Of a stretch of DNA of 64,000 nucleotides, positions 54,456 to 62,943 are shown piece by piece. Every line of letters begins with the position of its first letter. Position 1 is the first letter of the stretch. Position numbers and translations under genes: made by a program. Origin of the DNA: Pseudomonas putida (GTDB taxonomy: Bacteria; Pseudomonadota; Gammaproteobacteria; Pseudomonadales; Pseudomonadaceae). Under the pieces are notes generated by a model. The model ran no database searches and was not told the DNA's origin. It worked only from the letters and a program-made list of their open reading frames with translations. Location: assembly GCA_029953615.1 (NCBI GenBank), contig CP124529.1, positions 992,001 through 1,056,000 of the forward strand. Direction: 5' to 3'.

Positions 54456-55550
54456 TCAGTCTTCGCTGATGGTAATGCTCGGCATCGCCGGCGCCGCCGC
54501 TTCCTGCAGCACGATCCGCGCCCCTACCTGACGGGCCAGCTCCTGATAGACCATGGCGATCTGGCTTTCCGGTTCGGCGATGGCGGTCGGCTTGCCATTG
54601 TCGGCCTGCTCGCGAATCAGCATCGACAGCGGCAGCGACGCCAACAGGTCTACGCCATACTGGCTCGCCAGCTTCTCGCCACCGCCTTCGCCGAACAGGT
54701 GCTCGGCATGGCCGCAGTTCGAGCAGATGTGCACGGCCATGTTCTCCACCACGCCCAGCACCGGGATGTTGACCTTGCGGAACATCTCCACACCCTTCCT
54801 GGCGTCGAGCAGAGCCAGGTCCTGCGGGGTGGTGACGATCACCGAACCGGCCACCGGCACCTTCTGCGCCAGGGTCAGCTGGATGTCACCGGTGCCCGGC
54901 GGCATGTCGATCACCAGGTAATCCAGGTCGTCCCAGGCGGTCTGGGTCACCAGTTGCAACAGCGCGCCGGAAACCATCGGACCACGCCAGACCATCGGTG
55001 TGTTGTCGTCGGTGAGGAACGCCATGGACATGACTTCCACGCCATGGGCCTTGATCGGCACGAACCACTTCTGCTCGCGAATCTGCGGGCGCGTCCCCTC
55101 GGCGATACCGAACATCACGCCCTGGCTGGGGCCATAGATATCGGCATCGAGAATACCCACCCGCGCTCCCTCGCGGGCCAGCGCCAGGGCCAGGTTGGCC
55201 GCGGTGGTCGACTTGCCCACACCGCCCTTGCCCGAGGCCACGGCGATGATGTTCTTGACGTTGGCCATGGCCGGCACCTGAGCCTGAGCCTTGTGCGCGG
55301 CCACCACGCAGTCGATGGTCACCTGGGCACTGCTGACACCCTCGAGGTTGCCGATGGCAGTCTGCAGCACCTGGGCCCAGCCGTTCCTGAACAACCCTGC
55401 GGCATAACCCAACTGCAACTGCACGTTGACCTGCCCACCCTGGATATCGATGGCGCGCACGCAGCCGGCGCTGACCGGATCCTGGTTCAGGTAGGGGTCG
55501 GTGTACTGGCGAAGCACGCCTTCGACGGCGGCACGGGTGACGGCACTCAT
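54456..55550 (-). CDS. apbC: Iron-sulfur cluster carrier ATPase ApbC/Mrp
   Basis: A 364-residue P-loop NTPase of the Mrp/NBP35 family. An N-terminal MIP18-like domain (about 1-90) precedes the Walker A ASGKGGVGKST near residue 106 and the CxxC scaffold motif in ICSNCGH. It carries 4Fe-4S clusters to apo-proteins. The start at 55550 is chosen over 55568 because GGGAG lies immediately upstream. Divergent from metG, with 158 bases between them. Confidence 0.94.
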   Translation of the reverse strand: MSAVTRAAVEGVLRQYTDPYLNQDPVSAGCVRAIDIQGGQVNVQLQLGYAAGLFRNGWAQVLQTAIGNLEGVSSAQVTIDCVVAAHKAQAQVPAMANVKNIIAVASGKGGVGKSTTAANLALALAREGARVGILDADIYGPSQGVMFGIAEGTRPQIREQKWFVPIKAHGVEVMSMAFLTDDNTPMVWRGPMVSGALLQLVTQTAWDDLDYLVIDMPPGTGDIQLTLAQKVPVAGSVIVTTPQDLALLDARKGVEMFRKVNIPVLGVVENMAVHICSNCGHAEHLFGEGGGEKLASQYGVDLLASLPLSMLIREQADNGKPTAIAEPESQIAMVYQELARQVGARIVLQEAAAPAMPSITISED

Positions 55551-55708
55551 GGAGACTCCCATTGGCAAACTGGATGTAAAACAGACGCCTATCCTAACCC
55601 GTCAATCGTCAGCAGATGCGCATGCGGGATGAAATATCTTCGCCAGCCCTTTATAGTTACCGATCAACCTCATTTTTACCCCGTCGCCAGATAAGTAGCC
55701 GAGCCACC

Positions 55709-57748
55709 ATGTCCGAGCCACGCCAGATTCTCGTCACCAGCGCCTTGCCCTATGCCAATGGTTCGATCCACCTTGGCCATATGCTCGAGTACATCCAGAC
55801 AGACATGTGGGTCCGCTTCCAGAAGCTGCGCGGTAACCAGTGCATCTACGTCTGCGCCGACGACGCCCACGGCTCGGCCATCATGCTGCGCGCCGAGAAG
55901 GAAGGCATCACCCCGGAACAGCTGATCGCCAATGTCCAGGCCGAGCACAGCAGCGACTTCGCCGACTTCCTGGTGGATTTCGACAACTTCCACTCCACCC
56001 ACAGCGAAGAAAACCGCGAGCTGTCGGGCTTGATCTACGCGCGCCTGCGTGATGCCGGGCACATCGCCACCCGTTCGGTCACCCAGTACTTCGACCCGGA
56101 AAAGGGCATGTTCCTTGCCGACCGCTTCATCAAGGGCACCTGCCCCAAGTGCGCGGCCGAAGACCAGTACGGCGACAACTGCGAAAAATGCGGCGCCACC
56201 TACGCGCCCACCGAGCTGAAGAACCCCAAGTCGGCCATCTCCGGTGCCACCCCGGTGCTGCGTGATTCCCAGCACTTCTTCTTCAAGCTGCCGGACTTCC
56301 AGGCCATGCTGCAGCAGTGGACCCGTAGCGGCACCCTGCAGGACGCAGTCGCCAACAAGCTGGCCGAATGGCTGGATTCGGGCCTGCAGGAATGGGACAT
56401 CTCCCGCGACGCGCCGTACTTCGGCTTCGAGATTCCGGGCGAGCCTGGCAAGTACTTCTACGTGTGGCTGGATGCACCGATCGGCTACATGGCCAGCTTC
56501 AAGAACCTCTGCGCACGCCGCCCGGAGCTGGACTTCGACGCGTTCTGGAGCGAAGGCTCCAAGGCCGAGCTGTACCACTTCATCGGCAAGGACATCGTCA
56601 ATTTCCACGCCCTGTTCTGGCCGGCCATGCTTGAAGGCGCCGGCTTCCGCAAGCCGAGCGCGGTCAACGTGCACGGCTACCTGACCGTGAACGGTGCCAA
56701 GATGTCCAAGTCGCGCGGCACCTTCATCAAGGCCCGCACCTACCTGGACCACCTGCAACCGGAGTACCTGCGTTACTACTACGCGGCCAAGCTGGGCCGT
56801 GGCGTCGATGACCTGGACCTGAACCTGGAAGACTTCGTGCAAAAGGTCAATTCCGACCTGGTCGGCAAGGTGGTCAACATCGCCAGCCGCTGCGCCGGTT
56901 TCATCCACAAGGGCAACGAAGGCGTGATGGTGGCCGGCGATGCCGCACCGGAGCTGACCGAAGCCTTCCTGGCGGCCGCCCCGTCGATCGCCGACGCCTA
57001 TGAAGGCCGCGATTTCGGTCGTGCCATGCGCGAAATCATGGCCCTGGCCGACCGCGCCAACGCCTGGATCGCCGACAAGGCCCCGTGGTCGCTGGCCAAG
57101 CAGGAAGGCAAGCAGGATGAAGTGCAGGCCATCTGCGCCCAGGGCATCAACCTGTTCCGCCAGCTGGTGATCTTCCTCAAGCCGGTGCTGCCGGTGCTGG
57201 CTGCCGACGCCGAGGCGTTCCTCAACGTGGCACCGCTGACCTGGAACGACCACCTGTCGCGCCTGGAAAACCACCAGCTGAACCCGTTCAAGGCGCTGAT
57301 GAGCCGCATCGAACCGGCCAAGGTCGAAGCCATGGTCGCCGCCAGCAAGGAAGACCTGCTGGCAGCCGAAGCCAAGGCCCCTGCCGGCAACGGCGAGCTG
57401 GCCAAGGACCCGCTGTCGGCGGAAATCGAGTTCGACACCTTCGCTGCCGTCGACCTGCGCGTAGCGCTGATCGTCAAGGCCGAAGCCGTACCGGGTGCCG
57501 ACAAGCTGCTGCAACTGACCCTGGACATCGGTGACGAGCGCCGCAACGTGTTCTCCGGCATCAAGTCGGCCTACCCCGACCCGTCCCTACTGGAAGGCCG
57601 TCTGACCATGATGGTCGCCAACCTCAAGCCACGGAAGATGCGCTTTGGCGTGTCCGAAGGCATGGTCATGGCGGCCGGCCCTGGCGGTGAAGAGATCTAC
57701 CTGCTGAGCCCGGACAGCGGTGCCAAGCCAGGCCAGCGCATCAAGTAA
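55709..57748 (+). CDS. metG: Methionine-tRNA ligase
   Basis: A 679-residue class I aminoacyl-tRNA synthetase. HIGH signature in [10 protein letters not shown], zinc knuckle [18 protein letters not shown], and KMSKS in [12 protein letters not shown]-terminal EMAP-like tRNA-binding domain (about 575-679) is present, as in dimeric E. coli MetG. Start at ATG 55709 begins the catalytic domain ([18 protein letters not shown]). The upstream extension is rejected. Confidence 0.97.
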
Positions 57749-57764
57749 CACAACCTGCCGGACC

Positions 57765-57794
57765 TTGTGGGAGCGGGCGTGCCCGCTCCCACAA
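57765..57794. repeat. Compact palindromic hairpin (REP half pair)
   Basis: TTGTGGGAGCGGGC (57765-57778) and its exact inverse GCCCGCTCCCACAA (57781-57794) around a two-base loop, 17 bases after metG. It is the core of a REP element with the outer arms lost. It occupies the 108-base gap before the rnf-like genes. Confidence 0.8.
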
Positions 57795-57856
57795 TGACTG
57801 CAGCACCTTGATGCCAAACCCGGACAATCGCCCCGATTCCCGGCTATCGTCATTTC

Positions 57857-58405
57857 ATGAACGATTACCTTCTGGTCCTGATCAGCGCCGCGCTGGTCAA
57901 TCACTTGTGCCTGCAACAACAGCCACTCTCCAGGCTGCAACTGCACGTGCACGGCCTGGCCTGCGCACTGTGCATTGCCTTGGGCATGATCGGCGCACAG
58001 GTGCTGATACGCGGAATACTTGCCCCGCTACAGCTCCACGACCTTGCCCTGTTCCTGTTGCTGCCCTGGCTGGCACTGCTCAGCCGGGGCGTGCCCTGGC
58101 TGCTGGCCAAGTGGCGCCCGGCCTGGCCCCTGGTGGGGCTGCCGACACTACTATTGAGCAACGCGACAGTACTGGGGCTGGCCCTGCAACAGGCAAGTGA
58201 CGACAGCACATGGCTCGCTACGCTGCTGCAAGCCCTGCTGGCCGGCGGTGGTTTCTGCCTGGCGTTGATCCTGCTCGCCGACCTGCGCCAACGCAGCGCC
58301 CATGCCGAGGTCCCCGAGGCACTGCGCGGCCTGCCTGTCGAACTGCTCGGCGTCGGGGTCATGGCCCTGGCGTTTTCCGGCTTCAACGGGCTGTTCGCCC
58401 AATGA
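57857..58405 (+). CDS. rnfA: RnfA-like membrane protein, lacking conserved cysteines
   Basis: A 182-residue protein with about six spans. Its start (MNDYLLVLISAALVNHLCL) and end (GFCLALILLADLRQR... EVPEALRGLPVELLGVGVMALAFSGFNGLF) are clearly homologous to RnfA/RsxA. However, the LGLCPF region is QQQPLS and the TTNCAVLG region is LSNATVLG (residues 100-107), so both cysteines that hold the intramembrane 2Fe-2S centre in Rnf are missing. It is first in a run with rnfD (ATGA overlap), rnfG and an rnfE-like gene. No rnfB or rnfC is present. Confidence 0.85.
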   Translation: MNDYLLVLISAALVNHLCLQQQPLSRLQLHVHGLACALCIALGMIGAQVLIRGILAPLQLHDLALFLLLPWLALLSRGVPWLLAKWRPAWPLVGLPTLLLSNATVLGLALQQASDDSTWLATLLQALLAGGGFCLALILLADLRQRSAHAEVPEALRGLPVELLGVGVMALAFSGFNGLFAQ

Positions 58406-59373
58406 CCGCCAAACCCGACCCGCGGCTACGCGCCATGGGCCTGGTGTTGCTGGCCTGCATGCCTGGCTTGCTGGCGCTGTTCTGGCTGCATGGCTGGGGT
58501 CTGCTACTGAACCTGTTGCTGTGCGCCTGTGCCGCGCTGTTGTGCGAGGCATTGCTACTCACCTTGCGAGCACAACCGCCGACCACGGCGCTGAACGACG
58601 GCAGTGCACTGGTGACAGCCGTGCTGCTGGCTGCCGCCCTGCCCACCCTGGCGCCGTGGTGGTTGCCGGTGATCGCTACCAGCGTTGCCATCGGCATCGG
58701 CAAACAGGCCTTTGGCGGGGTCGGGCGCAACCTGTTCAACCCGGCCATGGTCGGCTACGCCTTCGTGCTGCTGAGCTTCCCGTTGCAGATGAACCATTGG
58801 CCAGGGCCGGCACCTGGCCTGCTCGACAGCCTTCAGCAGGTATTCGCCGATAGCGGGCAGATCGATGCCTGGGCCCGGCCGACACTGCTCGACGGCCTGC
58901 GTCACAACCGCAGCCTGACCCTCGATGAACTGTTCGCCAGCCACCCGGGTTTCGGCAGCATCGGTGGGCAAGGCAGCGAATGGGTCAACCTGGCATTCCT
59001 GCTGGGCGGCCTGTTCCTGTTGCAGCGCAAGGTCATCAGCTGGCATGCGCCGGTTGGTTTGCTGGCAGGGCTGTTCCTGTTCAGCCTGCTGGGCTGGAAT
59101 GGCTCGGGTTCGGACTCCAACGGTTCCCCTCTGCTACACCTGTTCTCCGGCTCGACCATGATGGCGGCGTTCTTCATTGCCACCGAACCGGTGTCCGGCC
59201 CCCGGCAGGGGTGGGCGAAGCTGGGGTTCGGCCTGGGAACGGGCCTGCTGATCTACCTGATCCGCACCTGGGGCAGCTACCCGGACGGTACGGCGTTCGC
59301 CACCCTGCTGATGAACCTCATGGCGCCGAGCCTTGAGCGCCTGGCCTTGCGGCGCCAGCAGGTCGCCCGATGA
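58402..59373 (+). CDS. rnfD: RnfD-like flavoprotein membrane subunit
   Basis: A 323-residue membrane protein, similar to RnfD/RsxD throughout (KQAFGGVGRNLFNPAMVGYA, HLFSGSTMMAAFFIATEPVSG, GSYPDGTAFATLLMNL). The FMN-bearing threonine region (IDGISQATPLD in E. coli) reads IDAWARPTLLD, so Thr161 is kept while the preceding residues have changed. ATG at 58402 overlaps the rnfA stop. The longer upstream frame is a shadow of rnfA. Confidence 0.9.
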   Translation: MTAKPDPRLRAMGLVLLACMPGLLALFWLHGWGLLLNLLLCACAALLCEALLLTLRAQPPTTALNDGSALVTAVLLAAALPTLAPWWLPVIATSVAIGIGKQAFGGVGRNLFNPAMVGYAFVLLSFPLQMNHWPGPAPGLLDSLQQVFADSGQIDAWARPTLLDGLRHNRSLTLDELFASHPGFGSIGGQGSEWVNLAFLLGGLFLLQRKVISWHAPVGLLAGLFLFSLLGWNGSGSDSNGSPLLHLFSGSTMMAAFFIATEPVSGPRQGWAKLGFGLGTGLLIYLIRTWGSYPDGTAFATLLMNLMAPSLERLALRRQQVAR

Positions 59374-59972
59374 AGCGCCTGATACGTGATGTGGGCCTGC
59401 TGCTGCTGACCGGAGCACTGGCGCTTTCGGCTACCCTGGCCTGGCGGCACTGGACCAGCACGGCCATTGCCGAGGCCGAGAAACAACTGAATGGCCGCCA
59501 GCGGCTGGCGGTGCTGCCAAAAGGCAGTTACGACAACCAGCCACTGGACAGCCCGCTGCCCGTGCCCGCCGCACAGCGGCCAAACAGCCTTATCCTGGCA
59601 GCTTACCGGGCGACGCTGGCGGGCAAGCCGGCCGCCATCATCCTGGTCACCCAGACCCAGGGCTATGCCGGGCCGATCGTGCTGAGCGTGGCCATCGCCA
59701 CGGACGGCCGGCTGATCGGCAGCCAGCTGGTCGAGCAACAGGAAAGCCCCGGACTGGGCGCACGCCTGGGTGATGCTCAGTTGAACTGGCTGGGGCAATT
59801 TGCCAACCGCCAGCTTGGCGATCATTGGGCGCTGAAGCGCGACCAGGGCGACTTTGACCAGTTGGCCGGCGCGACCGTAACCTCACGGGCCGTGATCGGC
59901 GCATTGCAGGAGGCGCTGAGCTACTTCGATGAGCAGCGCAGCGTGCTGCTGGGGGGCGCCACGCATGAATAG
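59370..59972 (+). CDS. rnfG: RnfG-like FMN-bearing periplasmic subunit
   Basis: A 200-residue protein with one N-terminal membrane span (RDVGLLLLTGALALSATLAW) and a periplasmic FMN-binding domain. Similarity to RsxG is strong near ESPGLGARLGDAQLNWL and GDFDQLAGATVTSRAV. The flavinylation Thr (GAT, residue 169) is retained, although the usual Ser/Thr before GAT is Ala. It starts four bases inside rnfD (ATGA) and overlaps the next gene by eight bases. Confidence 0.92.
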   Translation: MKRLIRDVGLLLLTGALALSATLAWRHWTSTAIAEAEKQLNGRQRLAVLPKGSYDNQPLDSPLPVPAAQRPNSLILAAYRATLAGKPAAIILVTQTQGYAGPIVLSVAIATDGRLIGSQLVEQQESPGLGARLGDAQLNWLGQFANRQLGDHWALKRDQGDFDQLAGATVTSRAVIGALQEALSYFDEQRSVLLGGATHE

Positions 59973-60489
59973 GTTCTACCTGCTAGGCGCAAGCCTTGTG
60001 CCCCTGCTGGGTGCCACCCGGACACTGGCCGAAGGCGCCACCATCGGTGTGTGCGCGGTGCTGATGAGCAGCCTTCACCAACTGTTGCTGGCCCCCCTGC
60101 GCCAGCGGCTCGCCACCGGCACCTGCCTGCTGGCCAGCCTGCTGCTGCTGGCGGCTCTGGCCAGTTGCCTGCAACTGGCCCTGCGTGCCTGGCTGCTGCC
60201 ACTGGCTCTCGCCCTCGGCCACTATCCCGCACTGCTGTGCCTGCAATGCCTGGCCACCGACCACCTGCTGCCCGATCAAGGGCGCTGGCGCCTGCTCGCC
60301 AGCCACCTTTGCACACTGTTTGCCACCTGCCTGCTGCTCGGTGCCAGCCGCCAATGGCTGGCCGACGGTGCCGGCCTGCACCTGGCCAGCCAGGCCCCCG
60401 GCGCCTTGCTACTGCTCGGACTGCTGCTGGCCTTGTACAATTGCCTGCGTCCGGGCCCCGCCCAACCACGTCGTCAAGGAAAGCGCTGA
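59965..60489 (+). CDS. rnfE: Short RnfE-like membrane protein
   Basis: A 174-residue, very Leu/Ala-rich membrane protein of about six spans. RnfE normally has about 230 residues. The N-terminal LGASLVPLLGAT lines up with LGLCPLLAVT of RnfE with Val in place of Cys; a later Cys (LLCLQCLATD) could stand for the second ligand but is offset by one. Position after rnfG and before nth is exactly that of rnfE. The start at 59965 overlaps rnfG by eight bases. Confidence 0.68.
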   Translation: MNRFYLLGASLVPLLGATRTLAEGATIGVCAVLMSSLHQLLLAPLRQRLATGTCLLASLLLLAALASCLQLALRAWLLPLALALGHYPALLCLQCLATDHLLPDQGRWRLLASHLCTLFATCLLLGASRQWLADGAGLHLASQAPGALLLLGLLLALYNCLRPGPAQPRRQGKR

Positions 60490-60493
60490 TTTC

Positions 60494-61132
60494 ATGAATG
60501 CCGCCAAACGCCTGGAGATCTTTCGCAGGCTGCACGAAGACAATCCCGACCCGAAGACCGAACTGGCCTATACCACTCCGTTCGAACTGCTGGTCGCCGT
60601 GACATTGTCCGCGCAGTCCACCGATGTCGGCGTCAATAAGGCCACCGCCCGCCTGTTCCCGGTCGCCAATACCCCCGAGGCCATCTATGCCTTGGGCGTC
60701 GAAGGCCTGAGCGAATACATCAAGACCATTGGCTTGTATAACAGCAAGGCCAAGAATGTCATCGAGGCCTGTCGACTGCTGATCGAGCGCCATGGCAGCC
60801 AGGTACCGCAAACCCGCGAAGCCCTGGAAGCGCTGCCCGGCGTGGGCCGCAAGACCGCCAACGTGGTGCTCAACACGGCGTTCCGCCAACCGACGATGGC
60901 AGTGGATACCCATATCTTCCGGGTCAGCAACCGCACCGGCATCGCGCCAGGCAAGACAGTGCTGGAAGTGGAGAAAAAGCTGATCAAGTTCGTACCGAAG
61001 GACTACCTGCTCGACGCACACCACTGGCTCATCCTGCATGGGCGCTATGTGTGCCAGGCACGCAAGCCGCGCTGCGGCAGTTGCCGGATCGAAGACTTGT
61101 GCGAGTACAAGCACAAGACCTGCGACGATTGA
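60494..61132 (+). CDS. nth: Endonuclease III
   Basis: A 212-residue base-excision repair DNA glycosylase/AP lyase. Helix-hairpin-helix LPGVGRKTA holds the catalytic Lys, VDTH the catalytic Asp, and the C-terminal 4Fe-4S loop is C-x6-C-x2-C-x5-C (CQARKPRCGSCRIEDLC). It starts four bases after the rnfE-like stop, the usual linkage of rnf and nth in gammaproteobacteria. ATG at 60494 begins MNAAKRLEIFRRLHE. Confidence 0.97.
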   Translation: MNAAKRLEIFRRLHEDNPDPKTELAYTTPFELLVAVTLSAQSTDVGVNKATARLFPVANTPEAIYALGVEGLSEYIKTIGLYNSKAKNVIEACRLLIERHGSQVPQTREALEALPGVGRKTANVVLNTAFRQPTMAVDTHIFRVSNRTGIAPGKTVLEVEKKLIKFVPKDYLLDAHHWLILHGRYVCQARKPRCGSCRIEDLCEYKHKTCDD

Positions 61133-61164
61133 GTCGATAGCGGAAAACCACCTGCGACGATTGA
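61118..61164. repeat. 15-base direct repeat at the nth stop
   Basis: ACCTGCGACGATTGA occurs at 61118-61132, the last codons and stop of nth, and again at 61150-61164 in the spacer. The second copy looks like a small local duplication. Confidence 0.85.
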
Positions 61165-61236
61165 AAAAATCTTTTTTACCAGCGTCTGCTTTCTGGTTAT
61201 AAGGACGGCCAATGGCCCCTTGGCTTGGAGCGACTC

Positions 61237-61413
61237 ATGAGTAGCGATAAAGACGACCTCTCGATCGAAGATGATTTTGTTGCCGCAGAGGATGAAGCGG
61301 AACCGCCGGTGGAAACCGCAAAAACCAACCTGAGCAAACGCCGCACCATCGACAACATGCTGGAAGAAAGGCGCCTGCAGAAGCAGTTGGCCGATTTCGA
61401 CTACGATCTGTAG
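61237..61413 (+). CDS. PA3496-family small envelope-linked protein, 58 aa
   Basis: A 58-residue acidic protein, MSSDKDDLSIEDDFVAAEDE then a basic helix NLSKRRTIDNMLEERRLQKQ and a DFDYDL end. This matches the small Pseudomonas PA3496 family, which sits after nth in P. aeruginosa and is named for a putative role in envelope integrity. GGAG six bases upstream of ATG supports the start at 61237. Confidence 0.75.
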   Translation: MSSDKDDLSIEDDFVAAEDEAEPPVETAKTNLSKRRTIDNMLEERRLQKQLADFDYDL

Positions 61414-61432
61414 CCCGATCCTGCAGCCTTGG

Positions 61433-61457
61433 TAAAGCCTCCTGGCAGGAGGCTTTA
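61433..61457. terminator. Inverted repeat between convergent genes
   Basis: TAAAGCCTCCT-GGC-AGGAGGCTTTA, an exact 11-base stem with a three-base loop, between the PA3496-like gene and the convergent response regulator. The AT ends of the stem give a short A/T tract, so it may act as a terminator both ways. Confidence 0.65.
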
Positions 61458-61469
61458 CGGCCTTGACGG

Positions 61470-62093
61470 TCAGTTCAACCCTTGCCGTTGCGCCAGCTCG
61501 ATCAGGTCGACCAGCGACCGCGCGTTGAGCTTGAGCAACAGGCGCGACTTGTAAGTACTAACCGTCTTGTTGCTGAGAAACATGCTATCGGCAATCTCCT
61601 TGTTCGAGCGCCCTCGCGCTAGTTGTTGCAGCACCGTCATCTCGCGCGCCGAGAGGCGGTTGACCATATCCGTCTCGCTCCCGCCTCCCCTGCCACGGGA
61701 CGGATGCAGGGCCTGGTTGGGGAAGTAGCTGTAACCCGACAATACCGCCTTGATAGCGCTCAGCAGCTCGGTGAGCTCCTGTTGCTTGCACACATACCCT
61801 GCCGCCCCCGCCTGCATGCAGCGCATCGAAAAGTTGCCAGGAGGCTGCGATGTCAGCACCAGCACCTTGCTACCCGGGCTGAAGGCCGTCATGCGGGCGA
61901 TCACCTCCAGGCCATCCAGTTTGGGGATACCGATATCGAGCACCACGATATCCGGCAGGTGTTGCCGCGTCAGCTGCAGCGCAGCCACCCCGTTGTCGGT
62001 CTCCGCCACGACGTCATACCCATGCCGCTCCATCAGCATGCGTACGGCCAAGCGTATGACCGGATGATCATCTACGATAAGCACTTTATTCAT
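61470..62093 (-). CDS. LuxR/NarL-family response regulator (EvgA/BvgA-like)
   Basis: A 207-residue two-component regulator. Receiver domain (about 1-120) with DD at the start (VLIVDDHPVIR), phospho-acceptor Asp in VVLDIGIP, and Lys in VCKQQE. A LuxR-type HTH follows (about 143-205: LSAREMTVLQQLARGRSNKEIAD, NKTVSTYKSRLLLKL). No kinase gene is next to it. I chose ATG 62093 (MNKVLIVDD) over 62108; neither has a strong ribosome binding site. Confidence 0.92.
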   Translation of the reverse strand: MNKVLIVDDHPVIRLAVRMLMERHGYDVVAETDNGVAALQLTRQHLPDIVVLDIGIPKLDGLEVIARMTAFSPGSKVLVLTSQPPGNFSMRCMQAGAAGYVCKQQELTELLSAIKAVLSGYSYFPNQALHPSRGRGGGSETDMVNRLSAREMTVLQQLARGRSNKEIADSMFLSNKTVSTYKSRLLLKLNARSLVDLIELAQRQGLN

Positions 62094-62460
62094 GCGATAT
62101 CCATTCATTGTTTTTGCTTTGGTCCGCCAAGATAACCGACAGAACGCTTGCTGGCGCGGTGATTGGCCGGCGAAATTCATGAGCAGATAAAACCTACGGC
62201 ACTTACAGAAATTTCCTACACACAACTGCTGTAGTTGTAACAGTTAAATTCCCTGTTGCCGGAATAAACGGTATCACCCGTCTGCAAAGGCGCACTAGTT
62301 GAAAACCGGCCATTACCTGAGGAATTATCCAACTCGAACACGAGGAACAAACAAGGCTGTCAGGGTTACCGGCGATTATTCCTCACCCGGGAAACTGTCC
62401 AGTCTTTAGTTGAGCATCGCCGTAAGGTAATGATGGGCAAATTCGCTGGAGACGGCCCAT
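62094..62460. other. 367-base intergenic region
   Basis: AT-rich for this genome, containing no believable open frame. It must hold the divergent promoters of the response regulator and the small membrane protein gene. I see no clear palindrome worth naming. Confidence 0.6.
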
Positions 62461-62943
62461 ATGCCCCAAGCACAACCTGTCGCCCCGCTGACGATCATTG
62501 CTATCTTCGCGGGGATTATCGAAGCCTCTGCCCTGGCCACACTGCCGTTTCTCAGCGAGTCCAGCCAACATCTCTACACCTGGTTCCTGGTGGGCTTCCC
62601 GTTCTTTCTGACAGCGCTGTTCTTCCTCACGCTCAACTTCAATTACAAGTCCTTCTACAGCCCGTCGCCAAACAGATCGGCGAACGACAACACACCGGCA
62701 TTGAACGCTCAGGTCAAACCTGCAACGCCCGGTGATGGCGGCGAAGCGCTGCAGGGCGAGCCTGTCACGTTCATGTTTTCCGGCCCCGATGCCAATCGCA
62801 TGATGGAGCAACAACTGCTGCTCGCCCTTGCCCAGCCACCTCTGCCAGCGCGCACCTGGCGCTTTTGCAACCTGGATAGACGCCAATGCGCGCAACTATC
62901 GATCAGCGCGCTTGAGGGGCAGATGGAAAACGACAGCCATTGA
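62461..62943 (+). CDS. Hypothetical small membrane protein, 160 aa
   Basis: A 160-residue protein with two membrane spans (VAPLTIIAIFAGIIEASALA, then HLYTWFLVGFPFFLTALFFL) and a soluble C-terminal part (about 75-160). It ends ISALEGQMENDSH. GGAG lies ten bases before the ATG. A terminator follows at once. I recognise no family. It is divergent from the response regulator, so it may be its target. Confidence 0.65.
   Translation: MPQAQPVAPLTIIAIFAGIIEASALATLPFLSESSQHLYTWFLVGFPFFLTALFFLTLNFNYKSFYSPSPNRSANDNTPALNAQVKPATPGDGGEALQGEPVTFMFSGPDANRMMEQQLLLALAQPPLPARTWRFCNLDRRQCAQLSISALEGQMENDSH

Follow-up and report, generated by a model that had tools for sequence, protein, structure and literature searches.

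We analysed a 64,000-nucleotide stretch of Pseudomonas putida DNA (contig CP124529.1, positions 992,001 to 1,056,000; hereafter the window), in which rnfA, rnfD, rnfG and an rnfE-like gene lie between metG and nth, with no gene between rnfA and rnfD. An initial annotation had described the order metG-rnfA-rnfD-rnfG-rnfE-like-nth with ATGA overlaps, and the gene coordinates bear this out (Table 1). It had not seen the key feature, the loss of cysteines with which RnfA and RnfE hold an iron-sulfur cluster in the membrane: only one of four is kept in the window. The residues for putative covalent flavin mononucleotide (FMN) sites on RnfD and RnfG are present. We propose, with a probability of about 0.5, that RnfADGE is an iron-free, one-limb flavin relay cut down from Rnf.

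Cluster cysteines and flavin residues

In a survey of 298 Pseudomonas genomes, we collected 104 distinct loci that reach rnfA, of which 10 are complete (rnfABCDGE) and 94 lack RnfC. The RnfC-less loci represent 85 of the 173 genomes that have an RnfD match without an RnfC above cut-off, plus nine named loci. Since most were taken from the top of similarity lists, the sample is biased to good copies and its counts are not genus frequencies. Duplicates were removed by RnfA and RnfD sequence, a locus whose contig stops short of rnfA was excluded (L082), and six others (L128-L131, L195 and L204) stand outside the class counts. Loci L012-L041, which are short of rnfA, were used for RnfE and flavin residues only.

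The ligands of the membrane [2Fe-2S] cluster in Acetobacterium woodii are Cys25 and Cys113 of RnfA and Cys25 and Cys108 of RnfE. Mutants in the cluster cysteines had no ferredoxin:NAD (nicotinamide adenine dinucleotide) activity, according to PMC11889175. Matching these positions by motif, we found both RnfA cysteines and the first RnfE cysteine in all 10 complete loci and in none of the 94 RnfC-less loci. Both RnfE cysteines were kept in the 30 loci L012-L041. Replacement cysteines in RnfA were considered and rejected, as those of the window's own protein are not conserved among the RnfC-less rows of a 29-sequence alignment.

At the covalent-FMN position of RnfD, 93 RnfC-less loci have Thr and one has Ser; at that of RnfG, 91 have Thr and three have Ser. 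All 94 conserve the riboflavin Asn of RnfD. The acidic residue of the riboflavin site is Asp in all 12 complete loci compared (L131 and L195 in addition to the 10) and Glu in every one of the 94 RnfC-less loci, a uniform exchange that fits a retuned riboflavin site. An RnfG Tyr, equated with A. woodii Tyr113 by motif and not by alignment, is kept in 93 of 94. Across 105 reduced loci (duplicates included), the median share of the invariant residues of complete loci that is retained was 84% for RnfD, 75% for RnfG, 49% for RnfA and 34% for RnfE. The ApbE flavin transferase family was present in 216 of 216 RnfD-positive versus 16 of 82 RnfD-negative genomes (Fisher p=2.8e-51).

Covalent-FMN residues and ApbE would be needless if the module had a non-redox role, for example transport or ion conduction via RnfD or RnfA/E. 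We consider such a role improbable, even though the redox partners are lost and RnfD/NqrB are related to ammonium and urea transporters according to PMC12174285. The same role could draw on RnfA Asn102, which lies beside the lost cysteine, is invariant in the 29-sequence alignment and, by motif mapping, appears to match Asn112 at the A. woodii Na+ site.

RnfB and RnfC in the genome of the window

The window's own genome is a single contig of 5.76 Mb with 99.95% completeness. Searching all of it, we obtained six matches to the RnfB model (best 41.9 bits, curated cut-off 68.7) and three to the RnfC model (best 56.5 bits, curated cut-off 245.95), none of which reaches its cut-off; two of the three RnfC-model matches fall in the genome's two Complex1_51K proteins. 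A relative's RnfB′, a shortened RnfB described below, gave a single 27-bit match as query against this genome, in the same 424-amino-acid frame as the best RnfB-model match. The absence of RnfB and RnfC, which the initial annotation stated for the cluster, thus holds genome-wide at these cut-offs, and no relocated copy was found above them. The genome has one RnfD/NqrB-type match and one ApbE match, and its sole FMN_bind match is RnfG.

Because three of the four cluster cysteines are gone, RnfB or RnfC from elsewhere would not restore the known path. The lost ligands and the sub-threshold RnfB and RnfC matches together support the earlier statement that the module cannot take electrons from reduced NAD (NADH) in the known way. 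They also bear on the idea of a normal Rnf in which other proteins, such as NuoF-type or other iron-sulfur proteins, have taken the roles of RnfB and RnfC. Distant model matches do exist in the genome and other iron-sulfur proteins could donate electrons, but no match reaches its cut-off and the loss of cluster cysteines in 94 of 94 loci breaks the inbound limb regardless, so that we hold this explanation to be very improbable.

Family identity of the four proteins

All four components of the Rnf membrane core (A, D, G and E) were recognised, RnfA and RnfE as distant members only. RnfD passes TIGR01946 (343.8 bits, cut-off 207.05) and aligns with NqrB, and RnfG passes TIGR01947 (170 bits, cut-off 102). 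RnfA passes Pfam PF02508 (39.9, cut-off 23.8) and lies well below the rnfA subfamily model (69.9 versus a cut-off of 229.3). Its predicted structure is of moderate confidence (predicted local distance difference test, pLDDT, 72.8), and the best Foldseek hits were 8ahx_A (E 1.2e-3, probability 1.00, template modelling score 0.65) and 9eri_A (2.7e-3, 1.00 and 0.64). Depending on the start codon, the RnfE-like protein scores 23.7 or 23.1, just short of the Pfam cut-off of 23.8, and 31.1 or 30.4 against the rnfE model, far below its cut-off of 213.4. A profile built from 19 RnfC-less relatives retrieved 8ahx_E (E 2.4e-9), 7zc6_E (1.8e-8), 9eri_E (1.5e-4) and the NqrD chain 7xk3_D (6e-4). Judged by these sequence profiles, the protein is probably an RnfE homologue, as a distant member of the family; its predicted structure has a pLDDT of 79.0. 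RnfE Cys68 (60166-60168) is invariant across the 31 sequences of an RnfE alignment.

A database search with the window's RnfA gave 132 relatives; among the 120 listed, those with a species name are mostly Pseudomonas. These include P. asiatica, P. plecoglossicida, P. mosselii and P. entomophila, and the named relatives from outside the genus are a Paucimonas metagenome-assembled genome, a Pantoea record and a distant Woeseiaceae RnfA.

Reduced loci across Pseudomonas

Among the 298 genomes, 216 had an RnfD match (211 above cut-off) and 82 had none, and RnfC was above cut-off in 43. The 94 RnfC-less loci comprise 57 of the form A-B′-D-G-E with an RnfC-tail match, seven A-B′-D-G-E without the tail and 30 A-D-G-E, where B′ denotes the ferredoxin part of RnfB without its membrane anchor, usually fused to an RnfC tail. 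A-B′-D-G-E is thus the commonest RnfC-less form in our sample (64 of 94). The window's four-gene form, whose conservation across Pseudomonas the initial annotation had left to a comparison of genomes, proved to be conserved (30 of 94 distinct loci) and is one stage of a genus-wide reduction of Rnf. It seems that many Pseudomonas species have retained no more of Rnf than its membrane and flavin parts and have lost the NADH and iron-sulfur parts, which suggests that a known ion pump was reduced to a simpler flavin relay. Three of the 173 genomes with RnfD and without RnfC (G001, G147 and G164) have a weak RnfD match that lies away from the nth locus and perhaps represents NqrB; their nth loci (L226, L224 and L231) have B′ and no rnfD.

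In 63 of 64 loci B′ still has all 13 cysteines found in the ferredoxin part of RnfB. With the nearest upstream Met taken as start, 12-20 residues separate this Met from the first cysteine motif in 62 of the 64 loci, compared with 45 in the complete RnfB shown, and the short distance indicates that the membrane anchor is absent. The B′ of L093, L102 and L081 matches the RnfC tail clearly (74-99 bits), that of others weakly (35 bits in L054). A Pfam scan of three B′ proteins (L083, L056 and L093) found no PF01512 or RnfC_N, both of which are present in the RnfC of L132. The fusion plausibly arose by deletion across the rnfB-rnfC junction. Relatives of B′ are named RsxB or RnfB, for instance in P. 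frederiksbergensis and P. brassicacearum (best 120 of 8000 scored).

On the RnfD tree, a branch with support 86/82, recovered in 85% of bootstrap trees, separates the complete loci (including L131) from the rest. The A-D-G-E label takes six changes, five of them forced by well-supported branches, which implies repeated losses of B′, about five or more; alternatively, B′ may have been gained by transfer. The spacers between rnfA and rnfD in L066 and L070 hold remnants that, read by eye, resemble an rnfB start.

We inspected 20 of the 82 RnfD-negative genomes and found B′ between metG and nth in 17, of which 13 lack ApbE. The other three have neither an intact B′ nor ADGE at this site (G003, locus L227; G024, L222; G065, L220, with a 78-residue B′ match). 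In G065, nth is 97% identical to that of the window and ApbE is still present. An rnfA relic of 45 amino acids is retained in L233 and an rnfE relic of 31 in L244. ADGE occurs without B′ and B′ without ADGE, which argues that the two modules need not form one working complex. We tentatively suggest, at clearly less than even odds, that Rnf has split within one genus into an iron-sulfur-free RnfADGE relay with a retuned riboflavin pocket, which moves electrons between the periplasm and the riboflavin on the cytoplasmic side and pumps no ions, and an unanchored RnfB′-RnfC-tail ferredoxin, either of which can be retained or lost separately. This would be a second case, still visible, of the type of change that is proposed to have led from Rnf to Nqr.

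A second, different RnfC-like gene was noticed in the survey. It scores about 370-405 bits in 11 of the 298 genomes and overlaps an RnfD-like gene at 6528-8923 of L128 (G103), and likewise in L129 and L130. These three loci have nothing nearby that matches RnfA, B, G or E, and the RnfD-like protein has no Thr at the FMN position. Among the closest relatives, three (G057, G072 and G103) carry the gene, and the window's own genome has none above cut-off. ApbE may serve another system in some genomes; it lies close to the complete Rnf in G022 and close to the second RnfC-like gene in G093.

Selection and frame integrity

Ratios of nonsynonymous to synonymous rates (dN/dS) were obtained by the Nei-Gojobori method from pairs that are not independent. 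Medians in the 10 complete loci were 0.046 for A, 0.080 for B, 0.181 for D, 0.257 for G and 0.143 for E. In 25 A-B′-D-G-E loci they were 0.219 (A), 0.120 (B′), 0.164 (D), 0.198 (G) and 0.349 (E), in 12 ADGE relatives 0.217 (A), 0.132 (D), 0.140 (G) and 0.247 (E), and in the 18 mixed loci L054-L071 0.354 (A), 0.176 (B′, 6 loci), 0.203 (D), 0.298 (G) and 0.428 (E). Every gene thus stays far below 1 in all groups.

Relative dN rates are given for complete loci and then for the reduced groups in the order B+Ct, B and noB; L070 was omitted from these rates and included in the dN/dS medians. Relative to RnfD, the rate of RnfA rose from 0.24 to 1.41, 1.72 and 2.07 and that of RnfE from 0.95 to 2.68, 1.58 and 2.10, with RnfG steady (1.64; 1.76, 1.48 and 1.79). 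Relative to nth, RnfA went from 0.34 to 6.41, 13.98 and 8.54, RnfE from 1.56 to 12.11, 14.35 and 8.21, RnfG from 2.95 to 8.44, 13.03 and 6.56, and RnfD from 1.72 to 4.53, 7.15 (5 pairs) and 3.78 (12 pairs). In loci with nth, dN/dS of RnfD was 0.183 in complete, 0.222 in B+Ct and 0.287 in noB loci (6 loci), and that of nth 0.079, 0.044 and 0.070. Constraint is clearly relaxed on RnfA and RnfE and somewhat on RnfD and RnfG, for which dN/dS indicates a mild relaxation at most.

In 93 of 94 RnfC-less loci, each of the four genes has a frame that stays open over almost its full length. The initial annotation had concluded that the genes are maintained and not decaying; the open frames and the conserved form support this, and the relaxation of RnfA and RnfE and the broken frames in four genomes qualify it.

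Several observations count against a working relay. Measured against nth, RnfD and RnfG evolve at two to three times their rate in complete loci. rnfA is broken in G245 (L070) and rnfD in G268, G262 and G034 (the four loci being L070, L252, L253 and L254); these genomes are otherwise rated complete, and sequencing error is possible, in G034 also because rnfB′ and nth are broken there. Together with the 82 genomes without RnfD, the broken frames indicate that the module is dispensable. The second cluster cysteine of RnfE is retained in 91 of 94 RnfC-less loci, and the association of ApbE with RnfD is not corrected for relatedness.

The dispensability and the faster rates are also what a decaying relic would leave, its function gone after the loss of RnfC and the remainder lost piecemeal. 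This is the main rival to the flavin relay, and the rise in dN/dS of RnfA and RnfE from 0.046 and 0.143 to 0.22-0.35 and 0.25-0.43 speaks for it. We nevertheless think it unlikely, at roughly one chance in four, because 93 of 94 loci are open, dN/dS is well under 1 everywhere with RnfD and RnfG within the range of complete loci, the riboflavin Asp-to-Glu exchange is uniform and ApbE accompanies RnfD in every genome.

Gene layout

The four rnf genes lie on the forward strand with overlaps of 4, 4 and 8 base pairs (bp), and the rnfE-like gene ends 4 bp before nth, which is probably cotranscribed with them, given this spacing. The locus is flanked by metG and nth in relatives wherever the flank reaches.

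Table 1. Genes and residues of the metG-nth locus in the window
Feature	Position	Strand	Description
metG	55616..57748	+	upstream neighbour; longest frame, true start may lie inside
rnfA, cluster-free	57857..58405	+	182 amino acids
RnfA first cluster cysteine stretch			GLCPF in complete loci; deleted in window
RnfA second cluster cysteine	58163-58165		TTNC in complete loci; SNA in window, Ala103
rnfD	58402..59373	+	323 amino acids; ATGA overlap with rnfA
RnfD riboflavin Asn113			aligned to A. woodii N123
RnfD covalent-FMN Thr161	58882-58884		aligned to TGAT Thr of Azotobacter vinelandii RnfD
RnfD riboflavin acid Glu262	59185-59187		aligned to A. woodii D249; Asp in complete loci
rnfG	59370..59972	+	200 amino acids; ATGA overlap with rnfD; FMN_bind domain
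RnfG flavinylation motif AGAT, Thr169	59874-59876
rnfE-like, cluster-free	59965..60489	+	174 amino acids; 8-bp overlap with rnfG
RnfE-like first cluster cysteine			Val12
RnfE-like second cluster cysteine	60247-60249		Cys95
nth	60494..61132	+	downstream neighbour; start codon checked

A chance or annotation artefact is ruled out by the open frames and the conservation of the module in relatives. There is no sign of an imported island: the four genes have a guanine-plus-cytosine content of 0.652-0.684, against 0.638 for the window, and relatives share the metG and nth flanks. Between metG and rnfA lies a perfect inverted repeat (arms TTGTGGGAGCGGGC and GCCCGCTCCCACAA, window 57765-57794). No Rfam RNA reached the gathering threshold in 55000-62500, and a sigma-70-type promoter scan of 57600-61300 gave no match, which carries no weight.

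Discussion

In Rnf and Nqr, according to PMC12174285, electrons pass from a cytoplasmic donor to the RnfA/E cluster, on to the FMN of RnfG outside, and then back by way of the FMN and riboflavin of RnfD. The flavin relay that we propose would have lost the inbound iron-sulfur limb, that is RnfB and three of the four RnfA/E [2Fe-2S] ligands, together with the NADH subunit RnfC. It would retain the flavin limb, with FMN on RnfG, FMN on RnfD and riboflavin in RnfD. RnfA and RnfE, without their cluster, may provide a cradle in the membrane for RnfG; according to PMC11889175, the A. woodii RnfG has a major contact within the cavity enclosed by RnfA/E, and we propose that this contact is why the two proteins are kept. 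Electrons would cross the membrane one way only, between the periplasm-facing FMN and the riboflavin site on the cytoplasmic side, where a new partner, possibly quinol or some reductase, might supply them or take them up. Ion pumping by the known cluster-gated mechanism would not be expected. The losses of subunits and cysteines, the kept flavin residues, the retention of ApbE and the open frames, all of them read from sequence, point to such a relay.

Database names such as RnfA/RsxA and RnfB/RsxB suggest an Rnf pump in Pseudomonas species where the sequence rules out the standard one. The genus offers natural dissections of the complex: complete, A-B′-D-G-E, A-D-G-E, B′ alone and neither. 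With these it becomes testable what the flavin limb of Rnf and Nqr is capable of without clusters and what RnfA and RnfE do beyond holding one, and they bear on how one redox pump becomes another machine. We found no description of a cluster-free Rnf without RnfB and RnfC in Pseudomonas in the open-licence literature.

Compared with Rnf/RsxABCDGE, the window has homologues of A, D, G and E in the same order, at the metG-nth site where relatives carry the complete rnfABCDGE, and with the flavin residues retained. It differs in having no RnfB, no RnfC and only the one cluster cysteine. The Nqr/Rnf-like flavinylated systems are likewise partial, with one transmembrane limb made of an NqrB/RnfD-type and an RnfG-type FMN protein, as described in PMC8238504 and PMC10979944. 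Those systems, however, are described with two apparent subunits and with an RnfD that is fused to a cytosolic NAD-binding domain and has no flavinylation site, whereas the window's RnfD keeps the Thr, gives no match to the NAD-binding domain PF00175 and stands beside a retained, cluster-free RnfA/E pair. PMC4014512 proposes that Nqr originated from Rnf when genes, RnfB among them, were lost in part and others were fused or recruited, and the window's RnfD matches NqrB. Yet in Nqr the cluster persists, and NqrF and a quinone site were added, whereas the window's module has no cluster. The form found in the window is therefore different from both the Nqr/Rnf-like systems and Nqr.

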